A stretch of DNA of 64,000 bases, taken from Hypholoma sublateritium FD-334 SS-4. Its lineage: Eukaryota; Basidiomycota; Agaricomycetes; Agaricales; Strophariaceae. Positions within the stretch are counted from its first letter, which is position 1. The number at the start of each line of letters is the position of its first letter. Below are positions 1,782 to 34,732 of this stretch, piece by piece. The stretch is taken from contig KN817668.1 in the NCBI GenBank assembly GCA_000827495.1, positions 2,829 through 66,828 of the forward strand, in the 5' to 3' direction. Position numbers and translations under genes: made by a program. Below the pieces are notes generated by a model. It searched no databases, was not told the DNA's origin, and was given only the letters and a program-made list of their open reading frames with translations.

Positions 1782-2815
1782 ATGCCGACCGTCGGACACC
1801 TTTCAGCGTGGATACAAGTCAACGGGGTTCGATTACCCGAGTACGCGACAGAAATCAGCGGAAGTGGGACAAAGGCCTCATGCTGGGTTCCCTCCGAGGC
1901 TGGAAAGGTGCGTTTATAGGGTTTCAAAGGGCCGCATTAATTGATTGTTGGACCTAGAATTTTGAGATATGCTACGAGGACTCCCTACTGGCCTTTGGCA
2001 CAACGACGAAAATCTATGTGGATGGCGTTCTCTTGCCAGGCGGCAGGGTGGTCCATCCCATGCAACATCGGCCCCAAGGGTTCACGACGCACCGAGGGAT
2101 TCGTATTGCGTCTGACTCATATAGGCCGTATGTGTTCTCAGATTGTGAGCTTATAGGCAAGTGCTTTTCAGTTCATCTTCCAGCCAGTAACCAGATGGAA
2201 CCCAGAGGATGAGGAATTTGTCTCAACTACATCTCCTCACGTTGGGGAGATCCTCTGCGTGATTAACGAAGCCAAAATCAAGGGCTATATCAAGCGGCCT
2301 CATACCGCAAAGCCCTACGATCTTCCACCATTGAAAATTCAAGAGCGAGAAAAGAAGGGGATCGTGCATGGCACTCAGTGAGTTATGATCTGCTTCTAGG
2401 CTTTTGGATCGTCATGCTTACCGTTTGCACGCAACAGGCTGGGTTCTGCTATCGACAGGTGGTCGAAAAAGAAAACGCGAGAGGTTTCGAATATCCGGCA
2501 TTTGGTGACATTTGAATTCAAGTACCGACCACTGAGTAAGTCCCCAGTAATTTCAGCTGCTTGTGTTGTGATTCAATTATCTTGAACGTAGACGTATTGA
2601 AGGCGGACGGCGTCGTACCGACCGGGCCCCTAGGAAGAAGAGTTTCATCTCGTCTGCTCCATAATAAATCTGAAGTGATTGATCTTACCGTTCAAGAGGA
2701 GAATGGTAGTTCTCACTCGCAACCTTCGACTCTGAGCGGTCGCCCTGTGAAGCGGGAACCAAAGAGAGAAAGGTCCATGACGCTTGCTGATCAATTCGTC
2801 GACCTCACGGTGTAA
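1782..2815 (+). CDS. DUF7918 family protein, copy A
   Basis: The spliced model has five exons (1782-1907, 1958-2156, 2206-2377, 2438-2535, 2592-2815) and encodes 272 aa. The N-terminal core (HLSAWIQVNGVRLPEY, then ASCWVPSEAGK) and the later VTFEFKYRPL followed by a VLKADGVVP-like segment match the fungal DUF7918 domain as I remember it; the function is unknown. Intron 2 begins GCAAGT, a non-canonical GC donor needed to keep the frame, and copy B shares it. The last exon holds an internal SEVIDLTVQEE, a VKRE site and the terminal VDLTV, which resemble SUMO-interacting and SUMO-acceptor motifs. It forms a tandem pair with copy B. There is no signal peptide or membrane segment; a nuclear role is an inference. 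The start is the only ATG giving the family N-terminus. Confidence 0.8.
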
Positions 2816-3541: not shown

Positions 3542-4581
3542 ATGCCAGCAGCCGGACATATCTCCGCGTGGGTCCAAGTAAATGGAATTCGACTACCGGA
3601 GTACGGAACGACCGTCAGCGCAGATGGAACTGAAGTGTCCTGCTGGATCCCGTCGGAGGCGGGTAAGGTGGGTGCCATTCTACCCCCGGCTCACTGTCCC
3701 AGTACTCACGGGACAGCGATACCAGAACTTCGAGATATGCTACCAAGATTCGTTAAGGGCATTCGCGACGGGCACGAAACTATACATCGACGGCGTGCGC
3801 ATGCGAGGGAAATTCCTGTACCCCCACAGCATGACCGAGCGCCGGCGCAGCGAACACGCAACGCACCGCGGGATCACGGTCTCGCCGTCCGAGTACAAGC
3901 CGTATGTGTTCGCGAACTGCGAGCTGATAGGCGAGTCGGCTCACAGCGCGCGTTGTCTGATTTTGTGTAAAGCGATGTGCTGACGGCGCTGTGGTTTCTC
4001 GTTAGAGGACGAGGACTTCCTGTCGACTATGTCCCCACATGTCGGCGAGATTGTGTGCGCAGTAGCTGAGCTGAGGCTACGGGAGTTTGCCCCCCCGCCG
4101 ACCGCCACCTATGAATTCCCGCCACTGAGGGTCCAGGAGCGCGCTAAGAAAGGCATCGTACACGGGACGCAGTGAGTTCCTCTCGGCCTGCTGTATCTTT
4201 AGAGCTCTTCTCATACCAGAAATGGGACAGGCTAGGGAGTGCTGTCAAGATGTCGAGGTCTAGAAGAAGGCGGGAGACGGACACCATCCAGCAACTTGTG
4301 AAATTCAAGTTCGTGTACCGTCCCCTTAGTAAGTCGGCGATGTCTTCCATTTGAATTGACCAGTTGTCGAACTGACTACCTATATTGCAGATGTACTCAT
4401 AGCGGACGGCATTGCTCCAGCTTCCGCATCAGATGTTGGCGTTTTGGCCTATCTGCCTCACGATAACTCGGAAGTCATTTATTTCCGTGACGAAGAGGAA
4501 GTCGGCCTCGCCATGAAGCGTGAACCAAAGAGGGAGAGATCTATGACGTTCGACAATTATAGCATCGATCTCACAGTATAA
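3542..4581 (+). CDS. DUF7918 family protein, copy B
   Basis: Five exons (3542-3667, 3726-3930, 4006-4171, 4231-4328, 4391-4581) encode 261 aa, with the same intron positions and phases as copy A. The N-terminus (HISAWVQVNGIRLPEY, SCWIPSEAGK) and the FVYRPL plus VLIADGIAP segment identify the DUF7918 family. The second intron again starts with GC (GCGAGT), and exon 3 reads on in frame only with this donor. The protein ends in MKREPKRERSM and a terminal SIDLTV, a SUMO-interacting-like motif; the internal VIDLT of copy A has become VIYFRDEEE. A and B lack the extra AELE exon of the other copies and so form their own subgroup. Function is unknown. Confidence 0.8.
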
Positions 4582-11922: not shown

Positions 11923-12312
11923 TCAAAGGTCCTCAGCTCCAGAAAGGATATCCTCCTCCGCAACATTCTCGTCCGCCGACTCCTCGCACCCGCAGTCCGA
12001 GTCATCTCCCGCGACATGGTGGCGGCACCCACGTGGTGTAGGCGCGCCCTTCACAGTGAGGCCGTACACATACGACCCATGGCGCGCTGCGTACTCAACG
12101 GCCTTGGTGACATAACTCTGTCCCGGGATGCTCGCCCAGTTCCCGCGGCGCCGCGCGTGGCACTTGTTGCGCAGGAATCGAATGAAGCGGAACTTTCGGC
12201 GGCGCGACGGGAAGGTGATGAACTGGCGCGTCGCGAAGCCGCCGGCGCTGCGCGCGTCGAAGAGCGCGAGGGTGTATGGCTGGAAACGCCCGAGGAGGTC
12301 GCTGCTGGACAT
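11923..12312 (-). CDS. Small basic/acidic family protein, copy 1
   Basis: A single coding exon of 129 aa that I do not recognise as any named family. The N-terminal 90 residues are basic: LLGRFQPYTLALFDARSAG, RQFITFPSRRRK, FIRFLRNKCHARRRGNW and YAARHGSYVYGLTVK. The last 35 are acidic, ending EEDILSGAEDL. Four paralogues lie in this window. A likely 5'-leader intron (12388-12314, donor GTAAGT, acceptor TTCAG) ends one base before the ATG, as in other copies. There is no signal peptide or membrane segment. It lies between COQ9 and the DUF7918 pair at 12.9 kb. Confidence 0.7.
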   Translation of the reverse strand: MSSSDLLGRFQPYTLALFDARSAGGFATRQFITFPSRRRKFRFIRFLRNKCHARRRGNWASIPGQSYVTKAVEYAARHGSYVYGLTVKGAPTPRGCRHHVAGDDSDCGCEESADENVAEEDILSGAEDL

Positions 12313-12878: not shown

Positions 12879-14077
12879 ATGGCAGATGTGACCGAGAAAC
12901 ATATGGTTTGCAACAACTTCGAGGCGTGGATCAGCATTGACAACACGGCGCTGACGCAGTACGGCGAGGAGCACAGCGTGGCGGGGGATGAAGCGAGCTG
13001 CTGGATAGCATCCCAGACTGATCAGGTGAGCGCACCCCCTTTCCGTCTGTTTTGTCGCTACCCTGTGATGGTCTGTAGGGGTTCTCTGTTTCGTACAATA
13101 AGAAAGCGGTGGATGAGTTCGACTACCTCGCCAGGGTCTACCTGGATGGCATTCTAGTGCAGAGTACCATATACGTAGGCGCTTCGGCGTACCTCCCGCA
13201 TACGGCATCCTCCATCCGGATATCGAAAACGGAATGCAGGGGCTTCGTCTTTGGCGCCATTCAGCTCTCAGGTTCGTGCTTAATATTGTTGCGCATGAAT
13301 GTTTCTAGCTGACACGCACCAGAGGACGATACCCACCTGGAAAATGGACCCCAGGATGTGGGTGAGATCAGGATCGCCATCATCAAAGCGAAAGCGGAGA
13401 GCACGCCGAAGATATACGGCAATCCAGTGCTTCCCATCCCAAATGCAGCCATTGTCCATGAGCGCGCGAAGATGGGGCTGGGCCACCACGTCAAGTGCGC
13501 CCTCTCTCCTCGGCGCTGTCACTGCCGTCTGACCTTGTTCGATACAGATACCAGAACGTGATCCCTCCCGCACAAGACAAAGCGCACCGCTATTTCTTCA
13601 AGAAAGAGCTGCTCGGCACAGTCGCCACGTTCGTCTTCAAGTACCGCCCGCTCGGTGAGTACCTGCGCGATGACCGTCCCATCCACGACTTTATTCGACA
13701 CGGTCACAGCACTGCTCCAAGCTAACGGGATCGCGCCGCGTACGCCGCAAACCCCGGACAAGGGCGTCGAGGTCGTCGAGATTCCGATTAGTCCGCTGCC
13801 GGTAGACAGCCCTCCTCAATCACCCAAAGCGAAGGTCGATGTAAGTCATGAAGAGGATGCAGATACCGCCGCTATCCTCGCCAGGGAGAGGGTGCTACTT
13901 GTGAGTAGAATGTATTTAGGGCTCGTGGTCACCCACTTACGAGCACGATAGGCTGAATTGGAGCAAATTCGTATGACGAAGCGCGCCGCTGGTATATCGA
14001 AAGATCGACGGTTGAAAAAAAAGCTGAAGCAAAATAGCGGACATTTCTTTCCTGGGGAAATTGTCGACTTAACATGA
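12879..14077 (+). CDS. DUF7918 family protein, copy C
   Basis: Six exons (12879-13025, 13079-13271, 13323-13494, 13548-13654, 13710-13900, 13952-14077) encode 311 aa. The family landmarks are all present: FEAWISIDNTALTQY, ASCWIASQTDQ, GFSVSYNKKAVDEF with YLDGI, IVHERAKMGLGH, FVFKYRPL and LLQANGIAP. A VEVVEIPISP stretch follows, then the AELEQIRMTKRAA helix encoded by the sixth exon, and the C-terminus EIVDLT. The psi-K-x-E site of other copies is lost here (LKQN). All introns are GT-AG, including the one that is GC-AG in copies A and B. It forms a tandem pair with copy D, 548 bp downstream. Confidence 0.82.
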
Positions 14078-14625: not shown

Positions 14626-15925
14626 ATGGCGAAGCATAACGTCGAAAACCCGCACTTAACCTGCAACATCTTCGAAGCGTGGGTCAGCGTCGGCGACAAA
14701 GCTCTCACACAGTATGCCCCAAAGCGCCGTGAGCTAGATGATGACTTTGAAGCAAGCTGCTGGATTGCTTCGGATAGCGATCAAGTCAGTCACACCCAAT
14801 ATGCCTACCCCCCCTTCTGACATGACATGACGCTGCCCCCTTCTTGGTCGCTTCATCATTTATAGCCATTCTCAATTTTTTATCAGAAGAAAGCAATTGA
14901 CAACATCGATTATCAGATTGACATCAATTTGGACGGTATTAACGTACTTTGCAGGCTAAAGACACATAAGTCAAGGAGTAGAAACGCCGTAATGTGTATA
15001 TCGACAGTCAGGACATCCAGTGAAGAGGTCAGAAACTTCACGTTTGGTTCCATAGACACGACGGGTACGTTTTAATCCCATTACACCGTGATTGTTCGTC
15101 ACAGGCAAGGTTTAGACGAAGATGCTAGCATTGCCCACAACGGTCATGACGTCGGGGAGATCGTAGTCTCTGTCAAAAAAGTGAAAATAGACCGGGAAAC
15201 GAAACAACGAAACACTAAATCATACGACTGGCGGTCTATCAAGGTGGACGAGCGCTCCAGCAAAGGCTTAACACATCAAATAAGGTGCGTAATGTTCTGA
15301 ATCCACTGTAAATCTCCACAGATGGGCCCTCAGACTGGGTAATACCATAGCCTCAAAGGCAGGCGAAGCTTCGTCGAGCTACATAGCTACACCGTATGGG
15401 GGCGGCGAAACATTGAGATTCAGGTACCGCCCACTCGGTGAGTGCCTTATAGACTGATGGCCCCTTTGTTATCTCAGGTTATCTCTCTGATTGTTTCTAG
15501 CCTTTTTGCAGGCGAACGGGATTTCTCCACGACCCTCGCTTCCTGCTGCTGCGGAACCCGAGTACATCGAGATACCAGATAGCCCCGAGCCACCGAGCGA
15601 GCTCGCTGATGACGAAGGCAGTCAAACCGCCGATATGGACGCAAGGGAAAAGGCGCTGCTCGTACGGAAATATAGCTTTTAGCCTCGATCGATTTTATAA
15701 CAGCGATTTTGGGACAGGCTGAACTTGAAAGACTTCAAAAAGAAAGGGCGGTATTGGTTTGTTGACTCTTCTGCAGATTTGGTGGACAGTCTCGCTTAGA
15801 TTAATCTTCAGGCTGAACTGGAACAGATTCGACTGGCAAAGCGCGCGGCGGCCCTCGCAAAGGACAAGCGGCCAAACAAGAGGGCTAAAACTGAAGTCAA
15901 ATCTGAAGTCAAGGCGGAACTTTGA
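14626..15925 (+). CDS. DUF7918 family protein, copy D
   Basis: Seven exons (14626-14784, 14866-15064, 15116-15284, 15322-15437, 15501-15661, 15718-15756, 15812-15925) encode 318 aa. Landmarks: FEAWVSVGDKALTQY, ASCWIASDSDQ, FSIFYQKKAIDNIDY, VDERSSKGLTHQIR, LRFRYRPL and LQANGISPRPS. A 39-nt exon (AELERLQKERAVL) repeats the start of the next exon (AELEQIRLAKRAA), giving a longer predicted coiled coil. The tail has two psi-K-x-E sites (VKSE, VKAE), but the protein ends EL and lacks the terminal VIDLT motif of its relatives. Intron 2 skips an earlier AG that would give an immediate stop. Function is unknown. Confidence 0.78.
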
Positions 15926-18567: not shown

Positions 18568-19918
18568 ATGGGGAAAGACTATTACAAGCTGCTCGGCATA
18601 GCCAAGAGCGCCACGGAGGAGGAAATCAAGAAGGCATACAAGAAGATGGTGTGTTAGGAGCCTTGTTCCCGTTTCACTCCCGCTGACCCTTCCCCACAGG
18701 CGCTAAAATGGCACCCCGACCGCAATAAAAACTCAGAGGAGGCCACGAAGAAGTTCAAAGAGGTGCGCACGTTGCTATTTAACTTATCTCACCGTACTGA
18801 CCCGCACTTATTTCATTCCGCAGATATCCGAGGCCTTCGAAGTGCTGAGCGATAGCAATAAACGAGCGGTATACGACCAGTTCGGCGAGGAGGGCCTAAA
18901 GGGCGGCGGCGGCGGCGGTGGCGCCCCGCCTGGCGCAAGCGGCTTCTCCGGATTCCCGGGCGCGACCTCAAGCGGCCCCGGCGGGACGACGTTTACGTTC
19001 ACCTCAGGCGGCCCAGGCGCAAGCTTCAGCTCCAGCGGCTTCGCCCCCACGGACCCACAGAAAATATTCGAGTGCGTGTACCCTTCTAACACCTACCTTT
19101 TATATCACTGACAGCTTTACAGACAGATGTTTGGCTCGGGCTTATTCGGCGGGATGGGCGGAATGGGCGGCGGGCGGCGCGGCGGTATGGGTGGGATGAG
19201 CGGGATGTTCGGCGGCGACGACGACGACATGTCCGGGTTCTCTTCCTTCACCTCGGGGGGCATGCCCGGCGGCATGCCGCGCCCCTCCGCGCAGCGCGCC
19301 GGCTCAGGATTCACCAACGGGCGCCGCGCCCCCTCCCCCGCGCGGCCCGATGCGCGCGCAGCGTCCGAAATCACGCGCCCACTCAAGGTCGCGCTCGAGG
19401 ACCTCGCGGCTGGCGCGGTGAAGCGCCTGAAAGTCGGGCGGCGCCTGCTCGACGGGGGCACGGAAGACAAGGTGCTCGAGATCACGGTGCACCCCGGGTG
19501 GAAGAGCGGCACGAAGGTGCGCTTCCCGCACGCGGGGAACGAGCAGCCGGGCGGCGCGGCGCAGGACCTGGTGTTCGTCGTCGAGGAGAAGCCGCACGCC
19601 GTCTTCACGCGCGACGGGAACGACCTCAAGGCGAGCGTCAAGCTCTCGCTCGTCGAGGCGCTGTGCGGGCCGTCGCCCGACGCCGGGCGCCTGTTGAAGA
19701 CGCTTGAGCTGCTTGATGGGCGCAAGCTACAGATTCCAGTGCCGCTCGGGACGGTGAAGCCCGGCCAGACAATGACAATCCCGGGCGAAGGTATGCCCGT
19801 GCGCAAGGACGGCCAGGTGCAGAGCAAGGGCGACCTGATCGTCACCTGGGAGGTTGTGTTTCCCGAGCGGCTCGCGCCAGCGCAGAAGGAGGGGCTGCGC
19901 CGGGTGCTCGCGGCATAG
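18568..19918 (+). CDS. Type II DnaJ/Hsp40 chaperone, Sis1-like
   Basis: Four exons (18568-18648, 18700-18762, 18824-19071, 19123-19918) encode 395 aa. The J-domain occupies residues 1-70 ([23 protein letters not shown] at 32-34, [19 protein letters not shown]) and stimulates Hsp70 ATPase. A Gly/Phe-rich region and a long Gly/Met-rich repeat ([18 protein letters not shown]) follow. There is no Cys-rich zinc domain, hence type II. The C-terminal peptide-binding domains include [19 protein letters not shown] and [20 protein letters not shown]. It corresponds to Sis1/DNAJB1-class chaperones of cytosol and nucleus. The frame at the third junction (IFE-QMFG) fixes that intron. Introns 1 and 2 sit at the same codons as in the aberrant DnaJ gene at 34.7 kb. 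Confidence 0.93.
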
Positions 19919-20353: not shown

Positions 20354-21527
20354 CTATATTGTAAGGTCAATGACCTCCCCGGGCACGAAGTGGCGGTTTG
20401 CTTCTGCTTTTACTTTCTTCTTCGGAAGCCCGTTGCTTTGCTTTGCACGCTTCCTATTACGCACGGATTCCAGCTGGGCCTAGAGAGACCGACCGTCAGT
20501 TGGGGTCTTCCCCCCACATACTTGTACTGCAGTAGAGACGGCATACGCACGAGTAATTCCCTTTCCTTTTCGTCGTCGGAATCGAGATTGATTATTCCTT
20601 TTCCCTCTTCCGTGGGTATTACGTCGTTTTCGTCGTCCTCCGACTGAGACCGCATACGCGGCGCTATATTGGTGGCTTGGAGGACATCTGTCGCTGTGGT
20701 CAGATTGGGTATCCTTGAGGGTCATAGAACCGACTAACCGAGCGGCCGATATCTGAAAAGGAAGGTAACTGGCTTGCCCTGCACCTCGTATTGGCAACAA
20801 GTGCGCTTCACTGCAGCCTGTTGAGCCGGACCGTACCTAGAGAAGATTTAGTGTCAAGTATAGTGTTATCCTATGTAAATTTCCGTGCTCACTTCACTCG
20901 GTGTGCCAGCCCTTTTTTGAATCGTTCGTGCACTTTCCCTAAGTTTTCAACGTCGTGCTCAAAACCTTCAGGTAAAAATTCGCCACGCTTTCCTCGCGTC
21001 ATAACAACCCTAATATAACCGATTTTACGCAAGAGGGGATTTTCGAGACATGAATCATCGTCTACAGGTAGTTAATGCATTCACAAGCCGACCTGACGCC
21101 CAGAGACAAAAAGCGCTCTCACCTGTTATTTCCGGCGGCGCAAAAATCAAGTTTTTGGTTTCATAATCAGAAATCCAGATCGTTGAAATCGTCTGCGTGC
21201 TTGTTACCGTCTTGTGGAATACAGAGTTCACCACTGCCTGCCCGTCCAGATATACCATTGCTCGGTAGTCGCTGTCGTCTTTCTCTTTTCTGATATTGAT
21301 AGAGAACGACTACCAGCCACATGGTTGAGAAGATTAAGCTAGTTGCCGTGCTCGACAGAAGAAGGGCGTACCTTATTTGCCGTAGACGCAATCCAGCATC
21401 TCGCATTTGGCCCTGCCACCGCATCTCCCTCCTCGTACTGCACGACGTACTGGGCGCATGGCACGCCGTCCACGGAAATCCACGCTGAAAATCCGTCGCC
21501 ATTTAGCATATCATTGGGAGTTTCCAT
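20354..21527 (-). CDS. DUF7918 family protein, copy E
   Basis: Six exons (21527-21372, 21309-21123, 21061-20893, 20836-20739, 20693-20551, 20479-20354) encode 292 aa. Landmarks: FSAWISVDGVPCAQY, RCWIASTANK, SFSINIRKEKDD with MVYLDGQ, KVHERFKKGLAHRVK, VTFLFRYRPL and DVLQATNIAPR. The fifth exon has IINLDSDDE, a SUMO-interacting-like hydrophobic-acidic motif. The last exon runs AQLESVRNRKRAK, KKKVKAE and ends GEVIDLTI: a basic stretch, a psi-K-x-E site and a second such motif. All introns are GT-AG. Exon lengths match copy F almost exactly, as expected of a recent tandem duplication. Confidence 0.85.
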
Positions 21528-22234
21528 GCCTATGAAATTAGCTTGAGCGATGTTCTGAAGTCGGCGGAGAGTTGCAGAAAATGTTGTATAAGAGCGTTCT
21601 GAGCGGTGGAAGCGTAGCCAAGTGAATGTTTTCTTTATGATCCCTTTAGAAGCAAGCAAATTGGAAATCTTGAATCGAATAGGTTTAAGAGGTCTTATTT
21701 CAAAATTTGCATTGCCAGTATCCTTGGTCGATTTTTTTTTCGTTCGAGCAATGTCCGATAACCTTTGCGACAAGCGTGAGACACGAGCCCCGATATCAAG
21801 TAGTTTTCGTTGATCTCGTTTTATGCTCGTTTTGCGGGATTTCTTGCGAAGTTGACAGTAGGCGCAAGGAACTTGAAATGCTTATGAAAGGCTAACGCAA
21901 ATCATAGTTTTGATTCTTTATATGCCGAAAAATCGTCACGCGCTGCAATAAATAAATCAAGCAAAGTTAAACATGGCATTTTACAATTTATCACTTTTCG
22001 AGTTGCGTGTATGGGAACCGATTTATTTACTATTCATAAACGTTTTGCAGAGTACAGAGGAAACGAATGTCAAAGATTATGGTAGTAGTATACCCTGGCG
22101 CTTGTTATGTAATTACTAATAAGCAAATCAATGGGCAGGGTGTCAGAAAGCAAATAAAGCTTTCGTAGTAATTAAGATAACTCATAGTAGCATATAGTAA
22201 TATACCTTCGTGCGGTGTAATTGATTATACGGTG
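21528..22234. other. Spacer between copies E and F
   Basis: Upstream region of the minus-strand copy E, AT-rich. TATAAGAGCG near 21587 is in the wrong orientation to serve copy E. A frame at 21339-21773 merely extends copy E exon 1. No separate gene is seen. Confidence 0.5.
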
Positions 22235-22357
22235 GGGTCGATAACCTTAGACTCCGGGCATGAAATAGCAAACAGGTTCCGCTTTCACCCCCTTCGGTGC
22301 CCGTCGTCTTGCTTCGTGTGCTTCCTTTTAAGTAATATGCACGGACTCAAGTTGGGC
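22235..22357 (-). pseudogene. Relic of a DUF7918 last exon
   Basis: On the minus strand this reads like the last exon of copy F directly upstream of it: a CTAG acceptor, AQLESV, then a stop, then KGVKAEP and YFMPG, and then loss of the frame before the VIDLT end. The homologous real exon is 22462-22587. It is either the remnant of a third gene in this array or a duplicated terminal exon. It is seen by direct alignment; no other exons of the relic were found in the AT-rich DNA that follows. Confidence 0.65.
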
Positions 22358-22461
22358 CTAGATGCAAATAGACGGTAAGCAAGGAGACTCTCAGTTGGAA
22401 GTTCGATGAAAAAAAACGCACAAAAAGTCCACTTGGCATATGCTGTAATTCTGCTGAAAAA

Positions 22462-23597
22462 TCAGAGGGTGAGGTCGATGACCTCTCCTGGCATGAAATG
22501 GCGGACGGGTTCCGTTTTCACCTTCTTCTTTAGGCGCCCGTCGTCCTGCTTCGCGCGTTTCTTATTACGCACGGACTCCAGCTGGGCCTAGAGAGACAAA
22601 CCATTAGTTGGGGTCTAACCCCACATGTGGTAGAGATACGCACGAGCAATTCCTTTTCCTTTTCGTCATCGGAATCCACATTTATTATTTCTTCTTCTTC
22701 CTTAACTACAGTTCCTACATTGTTTTCCTCGCCCTCTGACAGAGACCGCGTGCGTGGCGCTATTTCAGAGGCCTGGAGCATATCTGTAACTGTTGTCAAA
22801 TTCAATGGCTTTGGAGGGACCGGGCCGACTGACCGAGTGGCCGATATCTGAAAAGAAAGGTAACTGGTTTGCCATGCACGTCGAATGCACAAAATTTACG
22901 ATTATTCTCAGACCGTTCAACCGGACCATACCTGTGAGAAGAATTTAGCATTTTTCTATCAGGTTGTCAGCGGTGCTCACTTGACTCGGTGGGACAGTCC
23001 TTTTTTGGACCGCTCGTGTACTTTCCCTGTATCTACAATGTTGTAGCCATGATGTCCAGCTGCCCGACCACGATATGTTCCTCGTGTTAGAACAACCCTG
23101 ATGCTTCCGATGTTCTGCAAGGCAGGATTTTCCAGGTACGAATCGTCGTCTACAAATAATGAGTACATTCATATGTGGACCTGACGCCCAGACAACGCAT
23201 TCTCACCTGTCAGCTCTAGCGGTGCAAAAAGAAAGTTTTTCGCTTCATAATCAGAAACCCAGGTTTTCGAGATTGTCACGGTTGCTGGGGTATTATGGAC
23301 TGCAAGGTTTCTCACTCGCTGCTCGTCCAGATACACTGTTGCTTTGTAGGCATTGCTGTCTTGCCCTTTTTTGATGTTTATCGAGAAGGCCTGTCGGCCG
23401 CACGATTGAGCAAGCCGCTGTTCGACAGAACCAGTACGCACCTTATCTGCCGTAGATGCAATCCAGCAACTGGCCTTCGGGCCTGCCACCGCATCCCGCT
23501 CCTCGTACTGCACGCTATACTGGGTGCATGGAACACCGTCCACGACAATCCACGCCTCAAATCCATCGCAACTGAGCACACCATTGGGAGCTTCCAT
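22462..23597 (-). CDS. DUF7918 family protein, copy F
   Basis: Six exons (23597-23442, 23390-23207, 23149-22981, 22931-22834, 22789-22644, 22587-22462) encode 292 aa. Landmarks: FEAWIVVDGVPCTQY, ASCWIASTADK, AFSINIKKGQDS with VYLDEQ, KVHERSKKGLSHRVK, VTFLFRYRPL and DMLQASEIAPR. The tail carries EEEIINVDSDDE, then AQLESVRNKKRAK, KKKVKTE and the terminal GEVIDLTL. These match SUMO-interacting (IINVDSDDE, VIDLT) and SUMO-acceptor (VKTE) consensus patterns. It is the closest paralogue of copy E, arranged in tandem on the same strand with a relic exon between them. Start and introns are fixed by comparison of the six copies. Confidence 0.86.
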
Positions 23598-24363: not shown

Positions 24364-24750
24364 TTACAGATTGTCATCGCCAGACAGAATTTCCTCCTCT
24401 GCAACATCGTCATCTTCCGAGCCATCCGAGTCGTCACCGGAGCTCCCTTCAGGAGCCCTGCCAGTGCGATCGCGTACGGGCGCTTTCTGGGCGATAATAT
24501 CGTAGACATAGCAGCCATGACGGGTAGCGTATTCGATCGCTCTGATAAATGGAATACTTCCCGGGATACAAGACCAGTTTCCCCGTCGCTTTCCGCTGCA
24601 CATGCGGCGGAGGAATAGCATGAACATGCATTTTCTGCGCAGAGTAGGGAAAGTGATGAGCTGGCGACTGCCGACGCTAGTTCCGCCACGACTTCGAGAG
24701 TCGATCATTGTGAGGGTGTAAGGCTGGAAGTAGACGGTAAGCTCAGGCAT
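24364..24750 (-). CDS. Small basic/acidic family protein, copy 2
   Basis: 128 aa in one coding exon. Core: YFQPYTLTMIDSRSRGG, RQLITFPTLRRK, LFLRRMCSGKRRGNW, AIEYATRHGCYVYD. The acidic tail ends EEEILSGDDNL. It is a paralogue of the proteins at 11923, 25459, 26987 and 31552, of no recognised family. A leader intron (24807-24755, GTAAGT to TTCTAG) ends four bases before the ATG. The open frame extends upstream of this ATG only through intron sequence, so the start at 24750 is preferred. Confidence 0.7.
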   Translation of the reverse strand: MPELTVYFQPYTLTMIDSRSRGGTSVGSRQLITFPTLRRKCMFMLFLRRMCSGKRRGNWSCIPGSIPFIRAIEYATRHGCYVYDIIAQKAPVRDRTGRAPEGSSGDDSDGSEDDDVAEEEILSGDDNL

Positions 24751-24807
24751 TGTCCTAGAAGATAGGAAATAATCTTTAGCTATTTTATAACAGGCACATA
24801 AACTTAC

Positions 24808-25313
24808 AGTTGAACCCCTCGTCTGGAGAGAATTTATCCTCTGCGTCAAATTACATTCTACTTATTCATGTCCAGTTAATTGAAGCTGTCATCGACCATG
24901 TAACGTTCGTGAGTGAGTTTAAAATCTAGTTCCATATTTGCAGTAGTGAACGGAATGAAGTTTCCATCATAAACTGCGAGAAATATGGCAGTTGAGCTCT
25001 AAGGACAAGTGGAAAGGATAAATATTGCGTAGCTTTATCACGAAGTCATGGTTGATTTGCGGAATTGTCCCTGCGGAGAGAGCACACGTCTTATGCAGGT
25101 ATTCCATGTCTGCTTCAATCATACTAGCCGCCACAAAATCACAGGTACTCTATCTTCTGAGTGAGCGACATTGTACGCCGGACGTCTATAATGAGCTGTC
25201 CACAAATTTCCGAGACCACTGTCGTCCTTCAGCGAAAAGTCATTGTTTTGACTTTCCGAGCATTGTTGGCGAGCGTCAAAGAGAGAGGACGCCGATCTCC
25301 ACAGGCTAAGAGG
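24808..25313. other. Divergent spacer between small-protein copies 2 and 3
   Basis: Shared upstream region of two divergently oriented small-family genes. Short frames at 25025-25309 and 25161-25400 look spurious. No other gene is seen. Confidence 0.45.
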
Positions 25314-25458: not shown

Positions 25459-25833
25459 ATGTCCGATCTCGCAGCCCGCTTCCAGCCTTACATCCTCTCC
25501 ATCCTCGACTCGCATAGCTCCGGGCGCTTCGCCTCGAGGCAGCTCGTCACATTTGCCTCGCGGCACCGCAAAAACGACTTCATCCTGTTCTTGCGCGTCA
25601 AATGCAATGCTCGACGCCGTGGTGACTGGGCCACCGTTCCCGGAAGTCGCATGATGAACAAGGCCCTCGAGTACGCCGAGCGCCATGGGTCATACGTGTT
25701 CAACCTCCCACTCAAATATCACCCCTCTGCACGTCGATGCATTGCAAGCGATGACTGTGACGTGAGCTGTGCGGGATCTGACGAAGAGGATGTCGTTGAG
25801 GTAGATATCCGCGGTGACGGTGAGGATTTTTGA
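25459..25833 (+). CDS. Small basic/acidic family protein, copy 3
   Basis: 124 aa in one coding exon. Core: LAARFQPYILSILDSHSSG, RQLVTFASRHRK, LFLRVKCNARRRGDW, ALEYAERHGSYVFNLPLK. The acidic tail contains EEDVVEVDIRGDGED. It is a family member of unknown function; the core Cys, RRRG-W and YA-RHGSYV positions are shared with copies 1 and 4. A leader intron is possible before the ATG (TCATAG acceptor 23 bases upstream) but is less clear than in copies 1, 2 and 4. Confidence 0.7.
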   Translation: MSDLAARFQPYILSILDSHSSGRFASRQLVTFASRHRKNDFILFLRVKCNARRRGDWATVPGSRMMNKALEYAERHGSYVFNLPLKYHPSARRCIASDDCDVSCAGSDEEDVVEVDIRGDGEDF

Positions 25834-26986: not shown

Positions 26987-27364
26987 ATGTCTGATTTTGC
27001 CGGCCGATTCCAGCCATATACGCTCTCCATCCTCGATTCTCACAGTTTGGGTGGATTTTCAAGCCGCTACCTCGTCACCTTCCCCACCCGCCGCAGACGT
27101 AGCAGGTTCCGCCGCTTCCTGCGCCGCAAGTGCCGCGCCAGGCGCCGTGGAAACTGGGCGATCATCCCTGGGGCGAGCTTCTTCGGTCGCGCGGTCGATT
27201 ACGCCGCGCGCCACGGGTCGTACGTCTACAGCCTCCCGGTAAAGAGGACACCCAGCCACCGTAGATGGGTACAGGGCGAGGTTGACTCGGAGGGAGAGGA
27301 GTTTGCGCAGTCGGATGATGAGAACGTGCCCGAGACCGACTTGCTCTCCGAGGACGAAAACTAG
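26987..27364 (+). CDS. Small basic/acidic family protein, copy 4
   Basis: 125 aa, one coding exon. Core: FAGRFQPYTLSILDSHSLGG, RYLVTFPTRRRRSRFRRFLR, CRARRRGNW, AVDYAARHGSYVYSLPVK. The acidic tail is DDENVPETDLLSEDEN. It is the most basic member: the segment about residues 30-55 is dominated by Arg, so nucleic-acid binding is possible but unproven. A 50-nt leader intron (26934-26983, GTAAGT to TTTAG) ends three bases before the ATG. The nearest relative by eye is copy 3. Confidence 0.72.
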   Translation: MSDFAGRFQPYTLSILDSHSLGGFSSRYLVTFPTRRRRSRFRRFLRRKCRARRRGNWAIIPGASFFGRAVDYAARHGSYVYSLPVKRTPSHRRWVQGEVDSEGEEFAQSDDENVPETDLLSEDEN

Positions 27365-31551: not shown

Positions 31552-31950
31552 TCAATAGATCTGAAATATCTCCTTCGATAACAGACCCACATCCGACTCC
31601 CAGCCGCCCGAATTCTCTCCGTCGTCATTGTCCTCCCTGCCCACGTGTCTCCGGCCCACGTTTTCTCTTACTACCGGTGTCTTCTTTACGGTCAAGTCGT
31701 ACACGCGGCACTGGTGGAACGCGGCATATTCCAGAGCCTTCGCGAAGCTCTCGTCACCGGGCACCGCAGCCCACTCGCCCTGCCGGCGCGCCTGGCAGAA
31801 GTCGCGCAGGAAGAGCACGAAGTGCATCTTTCGGCTCTGGCTCGGGAATGAGATCAACTGGTGCAGTCTGAAGGAGGTGTCGGCGGGCCCCCGCGAAACA
31901 AGGATCGGTAGCGTGTATGGTTGGAAGCGCACTGGGGGTAGAGCGGTCAT
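31552..31950 (-). CDS. Small basic/acidic family protein, copy 5 (divergent)
   Basis: 132 aa, one coding exon, and the most divergent member. Retained positions: VRFQPYTLPILVSRG, HQLISFPSQSRK, LFLRDFCQARRQGEW, ALEYAAFHQCRVYDLTVKK. Compared with the others, RRRG-W becomes RRQGEW and RHGSYVY becomes FHQCRVY. The acidic tail (EDNDDGENSGGWESD) is extended and ends KEIFQIY, without the DILSG element. The start at 31950 aligns with the other copies. I see no leader intron here. Confidence 0.65.
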   Translation of the reverse strand: MTALPPVRFQPYTLPILVSRGPADTSFRLHQLISFPSQSRKMHFVLFLRDFCQARRQGEWAAVPGDESFAKALEYAAFHQCRVYDLTVKKTPVVRENVGRRHVGREDNDDGENSGGWESDVGLLSKEIFQIY

Positions 31951-34732
31951 GGGCCTTTGTTTCACGCAACGATTGGGACGTTGAAGACCTGGGGTAGTGT
32001 CTGATAGAGACTGCGCAACTTGATCATTCCGGCGATTTATCCTTTTTTTTCTTCCTTACTGGTGTCATTAAAAGGTTCCAATTCTAGATTCAGGTGAGCC
32101 GCGACAGTATGTTGTTTGAAGGATGAATGTAGCAGTATTCCATTTGGCAATGCCATAATTTGGCGACAGGAGAAATAATACCTTCATGTCGAATTGGAAA
32201 GAAAATTTGTGTCTCATTCTTCGCGTCCTCGATGTAATGACTTACCAGGATATAGATCTTTTTATTCCAGTTTTCCATTACTGGGCACTAGTGAGCGCTC
32301 GCACTTGTGCCGAGATGCCGTGGGCGCTTAAGAGTACTTGGAAGCAGTGCCGGCCATTCGTTGATAGTTCCTCCATTAGCACCAGTGACACGTTATTGGG
32401 GGAAATTTTAGTTTCAATGCCGCAGGAGACGTTTTATTTATAATACAGTGCCATGAAATGTCATTTCTTCCTATTCATATATACTTCAATGCCTTGCTTT
32501 GAAGCTGGCAGTAAGACGTAACTGGGACCAAATCGCTGCTTCACGTTTAACAACAGAAAGTGGTAAATAAGGTATTTCTAGTACTATAAACTATGTATGC
32601 GGGATATAGATATCACAATATTGACTTGAAGCTGATTTGTGTTGATGCCAACAAAAGGTTTAGCACCGAACATGTAGGATCCTCGCCCGGCCGCTGCCAC
32701 TGTTGTGAGTACTCGCGGTTGCAGAACAAGGGTCAAAAACGATCTAAATTCGATCAATTTGTGATATCAGTAAGTAAGCATGGCAAAATGTTGAAAATGA
32801 AATATCCTACTAACCGGTGTCTTTGAATCCAAGAGTGACAGGGATGATCGTAAGCGAGGGCTGTAAATCTGTGCACAAGATGGCGCTGTAAATTATTGAT
32901 ATTTCTTATCAAATCAAAAGAGAGCACCGCCCTATACATTTTTACAGAGATTACTAGTTCGGCGAACCATCATGCATTTCTAAGACATGGTATTTAAAGT
33001 ATTTCACAGAATGGCTTCTGAGATAAAACACTACCATCTATCTCCACGCAAGGCAGACACACCGGCAGTGAGACTTTTACTATGAGTTTGATAAAGTTCT
33101 GATACTACTTATGGTGAAAGCACTCAGTTCCTCTTACTTGTGACACCTACTAAGTAGTATGTAGCCTCGCAAAAAAAATGGGAAACAGATCCCATGAATT
33201 TCTATGATCTTATTTTCGTAAAGCTTAATTGTTTTTGGGTAAGACCGACAGTTTATGGTCAGGGCCCTTATCGTGCTTTGATTAAAAAATGATCGTTTCC
33301 GTTATGTATCGTCTACTCCATTGCAGAAGCCCTAATGCCCGTACTCAGACCTCAGGCCTCAGGATTGACTAAGGATTGGCTTGGAGCCACTATAAGCGAA
33401 TAATATCCGTAAGACTCATAATTGCATTCAAACCGTTGGCTTGAGCAGTTGTTTCGTTCCTCATACATGATAATGGCTGTTTTGCCTTGTGAAATCGAGA
33501 GGTCTGCAGTGTCGAATGCAAGTTACGAATTTTTGAAAACGTGATGATCCTCCGCAATACTTACCCGCAGTCTTATGAGGCCTTATGCAGCTCCCAAGGT
33601 CCGATATTCGTATAAGCGCACGCGGAAATGTACATATTATGGGATGTCGAAACAGTCGGCCGAGGTTAAGTAGGGTCCCAAGCTTCAGGTTTCCAGGCTG
33701 CCTCGGGGCGTAGGACTCGATGCCGGGAGGAAGGGTTCAACATTTCCCGAAACTTACCGACAGCATTTTAGTCACCAAACGCAGATTATTTTCAAGCCGG
33801 TTGCGTGCCCAGCTCTACTAGTAACTATAATCTCCATAATCTAGTATTCGATTGTCGCTCTGGAGCACTCCTCAAGGCCTCAGAGCCGTGCTCCAGGGAG
33901 CACGTCGAGTTTGAAGCCGCCCACCGCTGCGATCGCTTTTGTGATGCCCGTTGGATTCATTATAGGCTCTGATCAGGAGTCTTGCAGGAGTCGGTACTTA
34001 CTTATAGGGATATTGAAATTAATTACCACAAGTTTATGCTTTCGGTTGGCCATGGTTGGCTTTCGGTCGGCGATATGATAGGGTCTGAGTAGTAAGTACA
34101 CGAAGCGTGATTTTATTTTAGATTTTCCAATGCCAATTGGCGCGCATTGTGCCGAATATAAGCCGAAAAAAAATAGCCATGATCCGGATTCGGACCTGCT
34201 TTCCTACGACCGACGGAGGACGCGGCCACTGCCGGTGGCCGAGCCAAGACCGAGCAACCACCGAGTACTACGAGTTTTCTTCAGCTTGACCCAGCACCAT
34301 CTGTTTCCTCTGTCATCTGACATGTGTATACAGTCGCAATATTCTACATCGGGGTTCTTGTCCGTGTTTACTACGCAATCTAGCACCACACCGAAGAAGA
34401 ACCTGTCACTGGCATGTAATCACATAGCGTGCCGTCCTCGAGGAGACGCACCCGAGGTCCAATGAAGGGAGAGCAGAAAGGTAATCGAACTCATGGCCAT
34501 AAAACGAGATTCCTTATCAGAGACAGATCGCGGCCTCAAAGGGCCTCGTGCTTTACAGATCGCTGCGCTGCCGTACAAGACGCGTCTTTTTGCCTCGTTG
34601 CGACACAAACACTGGGTACAAAAGCCCTATGTTGGCAATATGGCGGCATGAACGTTCTTTCCTCCGTCCAAAAAATATTCCTACCTTTCAAAGGTCTTTC
34701 CTTTTACCTGCACACTACTTCGTATCGAAGCA
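31951..34732. other. 2.8-kb gene-free region
   Basis: I see no gene, tRNA or clear repeat. Frames in the area (for example 32186-32443 and 34130-34465) are short, AT-rich and without domain features. A GGCCACTGCCGGTGGCC palindrome lies at 34225-34241. Confidence 0.5.

Follow-up and report, generated by a model that had tools for sequence, protein, structure and literature searches.

Known SUMO motifs and the DUF7918 tails

The SUMO-interacting motif (SIM) of PIAS1 is built on the core VIDLT, which binds SUMO2 with a dissociation constant (KD) of 16 uM (PMC3901395), and a mutant in which this core is changed to AADLT has been published (PMC4907222). The general SIM consensus is a hydrophobic hhXh core with an acidic or phosphorylatable flank (PMC8616421), and the consensus of the SUMO acceptor site is [IVL]KxE (PMC3395311), called psi-K-x-E below. 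Some SIMs also promote sumoylation of the very protein that carries them, to which they bring SUMO-charged Ubc9 (PMC12751080, section 29). Here we describe a C-terminal tail that combines both motifs in the DUF7918 proteins encoded by a 64,000-nucleotide stretch of Hypholoma sublateritium FD-334 SS-4 (contig KN817668.1, positions 2,829 to 66,828), referred to as the window. With a probability of about 0.7, the DUF7918 proteins of mushroom-forming fungi are predicted to consist of a beta-sandwich head and a flexible C-terminal SUMO module, for which we propose docking in the SIM groove of SUMO or modification in cis.

The window contains six DUF7918 copies, A to F, all of which match PF25534 (DUF7918). 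Copies E and F score 61.6 and 73 bits and copies A to D 45.7 to 57.9 bits, against a cut-off of 27, and in E and F the match stops at residue 214, ahead of the tail. The E and F genes are intact. In an exact-splice search from the DNA, spliced copy F is HYPSUDRAFT_48921 of the same strain at 100% identity, and spliced copy E is the sequence of HYPSUDRAFT_427402. Their features are as follows (an asterisk marks the stop).

22462..23597 (-): copy F, DUF7918 gene of 6 exons encoding 290 residues; PF25534 match with E 4.7e-20
23597-23442, 23390-23207, 23149-22981, 22931-22834, 22783-22644, 22587-22462 (-): exons of copy F
22462..22530 (-): tail of copy F, KKKVKTEPVRHFMPGEVIDLTL*, with basic stretch, psi-K-x-E and terminal SIM-like VIDLT
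22662..22688 (-): proximal acid-flanked SIM-like site of copy F, IINVDSDDE
20354..21527 (-): copy E, DUF7918 gene of 6 exons encoding 290 residues; PF25534 match with E 1.5e-16
21527-21372, 21309-21123, 21061-20893, 20836-20739, 20687-20551, 20479-20354 (-): exons of copy E
20354..20422 (-): tail of copy E, KKKVKAEANRHFVPGEVIDLTI*
20569..20595 (-): proximal acid-flanked SIM-like site of copy E, IINLDSDDE

The two proteins share the ending KKKVK[A/T]E...PGEVIDLT[I/L], so that the lysine-rich stretch, the VKAE or VKTE acceptor, the terminal GEVIDLT(I/L) and the upstream IIN(L/V)DSDDE described in the original prediction can all be read directly. The VIDL of both copies fits the hhXh core (I, V, L); GE precedes this terminal core, and DSDDE follows the proximal one.

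The terminal site resembles the PIAS1-type SIM in its identical VIDLT core and in combining hhXh with an acidic flank. It differs in that the DUF7918 motif usually forms the last residues of the chain with the acid mostly before the core, whereas in PIAS a long acidic and serine stretch follows the SIM core. The cis SIM-dependent substrates (TDG, DAXX, USP25, BLM and yeast Srs2, and Yen1 in cells), a class defined by modification that drops on mutation of the SIM (PMC12751080, section 29), likewise combine an acceptor consensus with a SIM in a single polypeptide. This arrangement is found in at least half of the members of 77 of the 91 DUF7918 sequence clusters introduced below, and not in copies C or D. 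Unlike those substrates, DUF7918 proteins hold both motifs in one compact C-terminal module and belong to a multi-copy fungal family. A third parallel is offered by synergy-control-type SUMO sites, in which psi-K-x-E has a proline nearby; proline immediately follows the glutamate at 90 of 376 tail sites in DUF7918, a family that differs in having no known transcription-factor function. The kinds of motif are already known, and DUF7918 joins them as a new family within the limits of the literature searched, from which most subscription journals are absent. No paper in it mentions DUF7918, in line with the original view that the pattern is undescribed for this family, and searches on SUMO in basidiomycetes, Agaricomycetes, Coprinopsis or mushrooms, judged by title and the start of the abstract, gave no paper on DUF7918 among the matches listed.

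Conservation of the tail in the family

Three homologue searches returned at least 222 distinct proteins, one of the searches listing 120 of its 182 matches. Homologues with organism names come from many mushroom-forming fungi, whose orders include Agaricales, Boletales and Polyporales. Before counting, 19 proteins were dropped for lacking a full domain end or having a tail of less than 25 residues, leaving 203. The original prediction had staked itself on motif enrichment at the C-termini of homologues, and this was borne out. The strict motif [VI][VIL]DLT lies within the last 12 residues of 151 of the 203 (tail-shuffle mean 0.01) and exactly at the chain end of 118 (0.00), and psi-K-x-E is present in the tails of 192 (39.4). 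Chance origin of the tail motifs is excluded at the family level. Four partial records that end mid-motif (P0155, P0183, P0206 and P0207) are counted as having no terminal SIM.

Adding copies A to D gave 207 sequences, of which 12 failed a rule of 150 profile positions and were removed before tree building. In the resulting 195-row set, the relaxed terminal motif occurs in 153 rows, the strict form in 145 and psi-K-x-E in 185. Clustering of the family at 60% domain identity gave 91 clusters; at least half of the members carry the SIM in 80 of them, [VI]KxE in 83 and psi-K-x-E together with the SIM in 77. On the same tree, rows from Mycena and its relatives (e.g., P0018, P0019, P0023 and P0040) have short domain end branches, 21 of 21 lying below the set median of 0.23, in contrast to many rows with a SIM.

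The residues around the terminal core follow the expected SIM pattern. Among 230 DLT occurrences, the residue at -1 is I, L or V in 226, that at -2 is V or I in 205 and that at -3 is acidic in 189, and 180 of 204 strict motifs have an acid no more than three residues ahead of the core. Two strict VIDLT-type copies are found in 50 of the 195 tails, which indicates that the motif is also retained away from the chain end. The acceptor precedes the terminal SIM in every one of the 148 tails that have both motifs, and the spacing is 11 to 16 residues in 110 of 155. From the N-terminal side, the order is a proximal SIM-like site with an acidic flank, which some members have (of the IINVDSDDE type in E and F), a helix, the basic stretch, one or more psi-K-x-E sites and the terminal VIDLT-type SIM. 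This anatomy and order are conserved, and the module is duplicated in places, with two acceptor-plus-SIM units present in one protein in 18 of 195 tails. Beside copy F, a degenerate tandem copy of its tail exon, with a stop and gaps inside, was detected by blastn (76% over 136 columns) and by tblastn.

22231..22362 (-): degenerate tandem copy of the F tail exon

Together with the repeated units of other members, this remnant makes exon-level duplication a plausible route for the duplication of the tail.

In the AlphaFold2 model, an all-beta domain is predicted with confidence, residues 239-264 form a helix and the tail has a predicted local distance difference test score (pLDDT) of about 70-74. 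The head is interpreted as a beta-sandwich. The RhoGDI, TEAD-YBD and UNC119 beta-sandwich group was considered as possibly sharing its fold, and the model gave no significant match among solved folds. No positive selection was seen in the head, where omega is 0.36-0.38 among E, F and the C221 copy found elsewhere in the genome.

Divergent copies in the window

Copies A, B, C and D, which are hand-built gene models, show how the module varies between neighbours.

1782..2815 (+): copy A, DUF7918, 5 exons, 272 residues
2675-2689 (+): VIDLT of copy A
2747-2815 (+): tail of copy A, VKREPKRERSMTLADQFVDLTV*
3542..4581 (+): copy B, DUF7918, 5 exons, 261 residues
4513-4581 (+): tail of copy B, MKREPKRERSMTFDNYSIDLTV*
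12879..14077 (+): copy C, DUF7918, 6 exons, 311 residues
14015-14077 (+): tail of copy C, KKKLKQNSGHFFPGEIVDLT*
14626..15925 (+): copy D, DUF7918, 7 exons, 320 residues
15878-15925 (+): tail of copy D, KRAKTEVKSEVKAEL*

The motifs first proposed for these copies are again present. Copy A has VKRE and two VIDLT-like motifs, VIDLT itself and the terminal FVDLTV*; copy B has MKRE and SIDLTV*; copy C keeps EIVDLT*; and copy D keeps VKSE/VKAE and has lost VIDLT. To this can be added that copy C has LKQN in place of psi-K-x-E and has thus lost the acceptor motif. The second introns of copy A (2157-2205) and copy B (3931-4005) both use a GC-AG splice pair in these hand-built models.

Alternative explanations of the tail

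Each half of the tail could be explained without SUMO. The lysine-rich stretch may be a nuclear localisation signal (NLS) only, with psi-K-x-E arising by chance from basic clusters beside acidic linkers, an explanation that covers the acceptor alone and that we regard as unlikely. KKKVK and KRVK do resemble classical NLSs, and at least four K or R surround the last acceptor in 128 of 185 tails. An NLS should accept arginine, yet the 195 tails contain [VI]KxE 330 times and [VI]RxE 4 times (with [VI]KxD 8 and [VI]ExK 15) at a composition of 1856 K and 1430 R, a K:R ratio of 1.3. The same patterns in the domain number 50, 18, 35 and 25, respectively, a far weaker bias. The K and the +2 E are almost invariant columns in a 105-row alignment, the shuffled tails fall well short of the 192 psi-K-x-E positives, and VIDLT is left unexplained. 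For its part, VIDLT could be an end-of-chain signal (a C-degron, a PDZ ligand or another ligand read through its carboxylate) or a CtBP PxDLS- or WDR5-binding motif, which would account for the SIM alone and seems quite improbable. The chain does end directly after T, leaving a free carboxylate there, in 118 of 160 motif tails; against this, 77 of the 230 DLT occurrences are separated from the chain end by more than 8 residues, and E and F carry one extra residue after VIDLT. CtBP ligands follow the pattern PxDL[ST], with P first, and both the CtBP-like P[VILMPE]DL[STVAG] and the WDR5-like [ED][ED][VIL]D[VIL][TV] occur 0 times in the 195 tails. Acid-flanked hhXh sites with different letters are moreover enriched upstream of the last 20 residues (40 of 195 tails versus 4.4 in shuffles). 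Their cores vary (IINVDSDDE, VIEIENDTEE, VLDLTGDSEE and VIVLSDDDDE), and positional homology among them is not established. A comparison of the tail peptides with PDB sequences gave no match, the queries being too short for this to carry weight.

It is possible, if somewhat doubtful, that the tail is only a non-covalent SUMO reader whose psi-K-x-E goes unused, or conversely a substrate that makes no use of its SIM. Part of this explanation is shared with the SUMO module proposed here, so the odds of the two do not sum to one. Copy C, with a SIM and no psi-K-x-E, and copy D, with the opposite, are what such a tail would look like, as is the clade of 21 rows from Mycena and its relatives, none of which has the terminal SIM. 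On the other side stand the 77 clusters that keep both motifs and an omega between E and the C221 copy of 0.09 in the tail, 0.36 in the domain and 0.68 in the linker, although the tail value rests on 26 codons and 4 differences and is a weak test (for comparison with F, synonymous divergence (dS) in the tail is saturated). Retention of a functionless motif through recent shared ancestry is very improbable. All members are homologous, so their counts are not independent; yet in 1500 random motif-bearing pairs, where domain identity is about 30-40%, that of the linker is 27-29% and that of the octapeptide 71%, the last figure being conditioned on motif presence. On the 195-row tree, the SIM requires a minimum of 18 changes and psi-K-x-E a minimum of 9.

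Several points weigh against a SUMO module in all or some of these proteins, the free carboxylate and the thin omega test among them. Many sites that fit the degenerate SIM consensus are non-functional (PMC8616421). Because the homologue queries included the tail, the motif fractions may be inflated, and because the scan for upstream sites imposes its own pattern, its evidence lies in the enrichment and not in the pattern. In the clade of Mycena and its relatives, 19 of the 21 rows have two or three psi-K-x-E sites with the terminal SIM missing from all, and the neighbouring paralogues C and D have lost opposite halves of the module. The two motifs are therefore separable, and action in cis cannot be universal. 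Nor is a nuclear signal universal, since the dense basic cluster is found in just 128 of the 185 tails. A scan of the genome for (V/I/M)ID(L/F)T running into TRR, either directly or across a single additional hydrophobic residue, gave 17 matches versus 8 for the reversed control, and 2 of the 17 read TGG and not a stop. On balance, the controls favour a SUMO tail, and not a signal for nuclear localisation alone or one read at the chain end. The pattern first proposed is thus upheld by family conservation and by the controls that address an NLS alone, CtBP- and WDR5-type motifs and end-of-chain signals, and the support for interpreting it as a SUMO tail is evolutionary and at the level of sequence.

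Proposed mechanism

In the proposed SUMO module, the terminal VIDLT would add a strand to the SIM groove of SUMO, and the bound SIM could then dock the protein on sumoylated nuclear partners. Alternatively, the SIM may hold SUMO-charged Ubc9 in place for modification in cis of the acceptor lysine, which usually lies 11-16 residues ahead of it. By analogy with known substrates, recruitment of Ubc9 in cis, alongside docking on sumoylated partners, would be the most likely mode of action. Head and tail together would bring the ligand of the head into SUMO-rich nuclear assemblies. A more speculative and rather unlikely extension is that DUF7918 proteins are multi-copy nuclear adaptors whose diverging heads each have their own ligand and whose near-constant SUMO tail takes that ligand to nuclear bodies rich in SUMO. 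These bodies would be the mushroom equivalent of PML-type assemblies in animals and might serve genome defence or self-recognition. A conserved SUMO module of the kind proposed would in itself provide the first testable pathway for DUF7918, a family without known function. Copies C and D offer natural experiments, as C should bind SUMO without modification of its tail and D should do the reverse.

DUF7918 loci and SUMO machinery in the genome

The H. sublateritium genome contains 13 DUF7918 loci, namely A to F, one each on C37 and C221, three on C111 and two on C109. The genes were recovered by protein search, 12 of the loci through their domain exons and the one at C109:116129 solely through its tail exon; the census excludes a further match at C1:410693 (E 0.004, one stop). 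A PF25534 profile search of the genome gave no match, probably because it works exon by exon, and its control was likewise silent, so this is no evidence of absence. A DLT-type tail is found in 10 of the 13 loci, two have diverged tails (VIELII* and TIDLLLDA*) and D has none.

DUF7918 accounts for 7 of the 17 matches in the genome scan. Of the 10 others, 9 have no more than 48 open codons upstream in frame, for which short last exons are possible, and only one falls in a long open frame, the 500-residue frame of a GEN1/Yen1 homologue that ends in SDIIDLT*. In yeast, the Yen1 SIM affects Yen1 sumoylation in cells and not in vitro (PMC12751080, section 29). The Hypholoma homologue (C237:17594) also carries PVIEITDDSESD.

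The expected SUMO partners appear to be encoded in the same genome, with one SP-RING match and a candidate SUMO-like gene on C101, whose exons, lying in different frames, were read by eye as far as a terminal VGGR*. A PF11976 match on C5 was considered as SUMO and rejected, as it is a ubiquitin fusion.

Other genes of the window

A second tandem family, of proteins of about 125 residues, is interspersed with the DUF7918 copies and also lies beside them.

11923-12312 (-): open reading frame of the second tandem family
24364-24849 (-): open reading frame of the second tandem family
25459-25833 (+): open reading frame of the second tandem family
26987-27364 (+): open reading frame of the second tandem family
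31552-31965 (-): open reading frame of the second tandem family

The three of these five reading frames that were tested have no Pfam match. The family is marked by the motif RFQPYTLSILDSHS...FLRxKCxARRRGNWA...YAxRHGxYVY and by acidic C-terminal tails. Copy E is adjoined by a gene with a DnaJ C-terminal domain at 19127-19918 (+).

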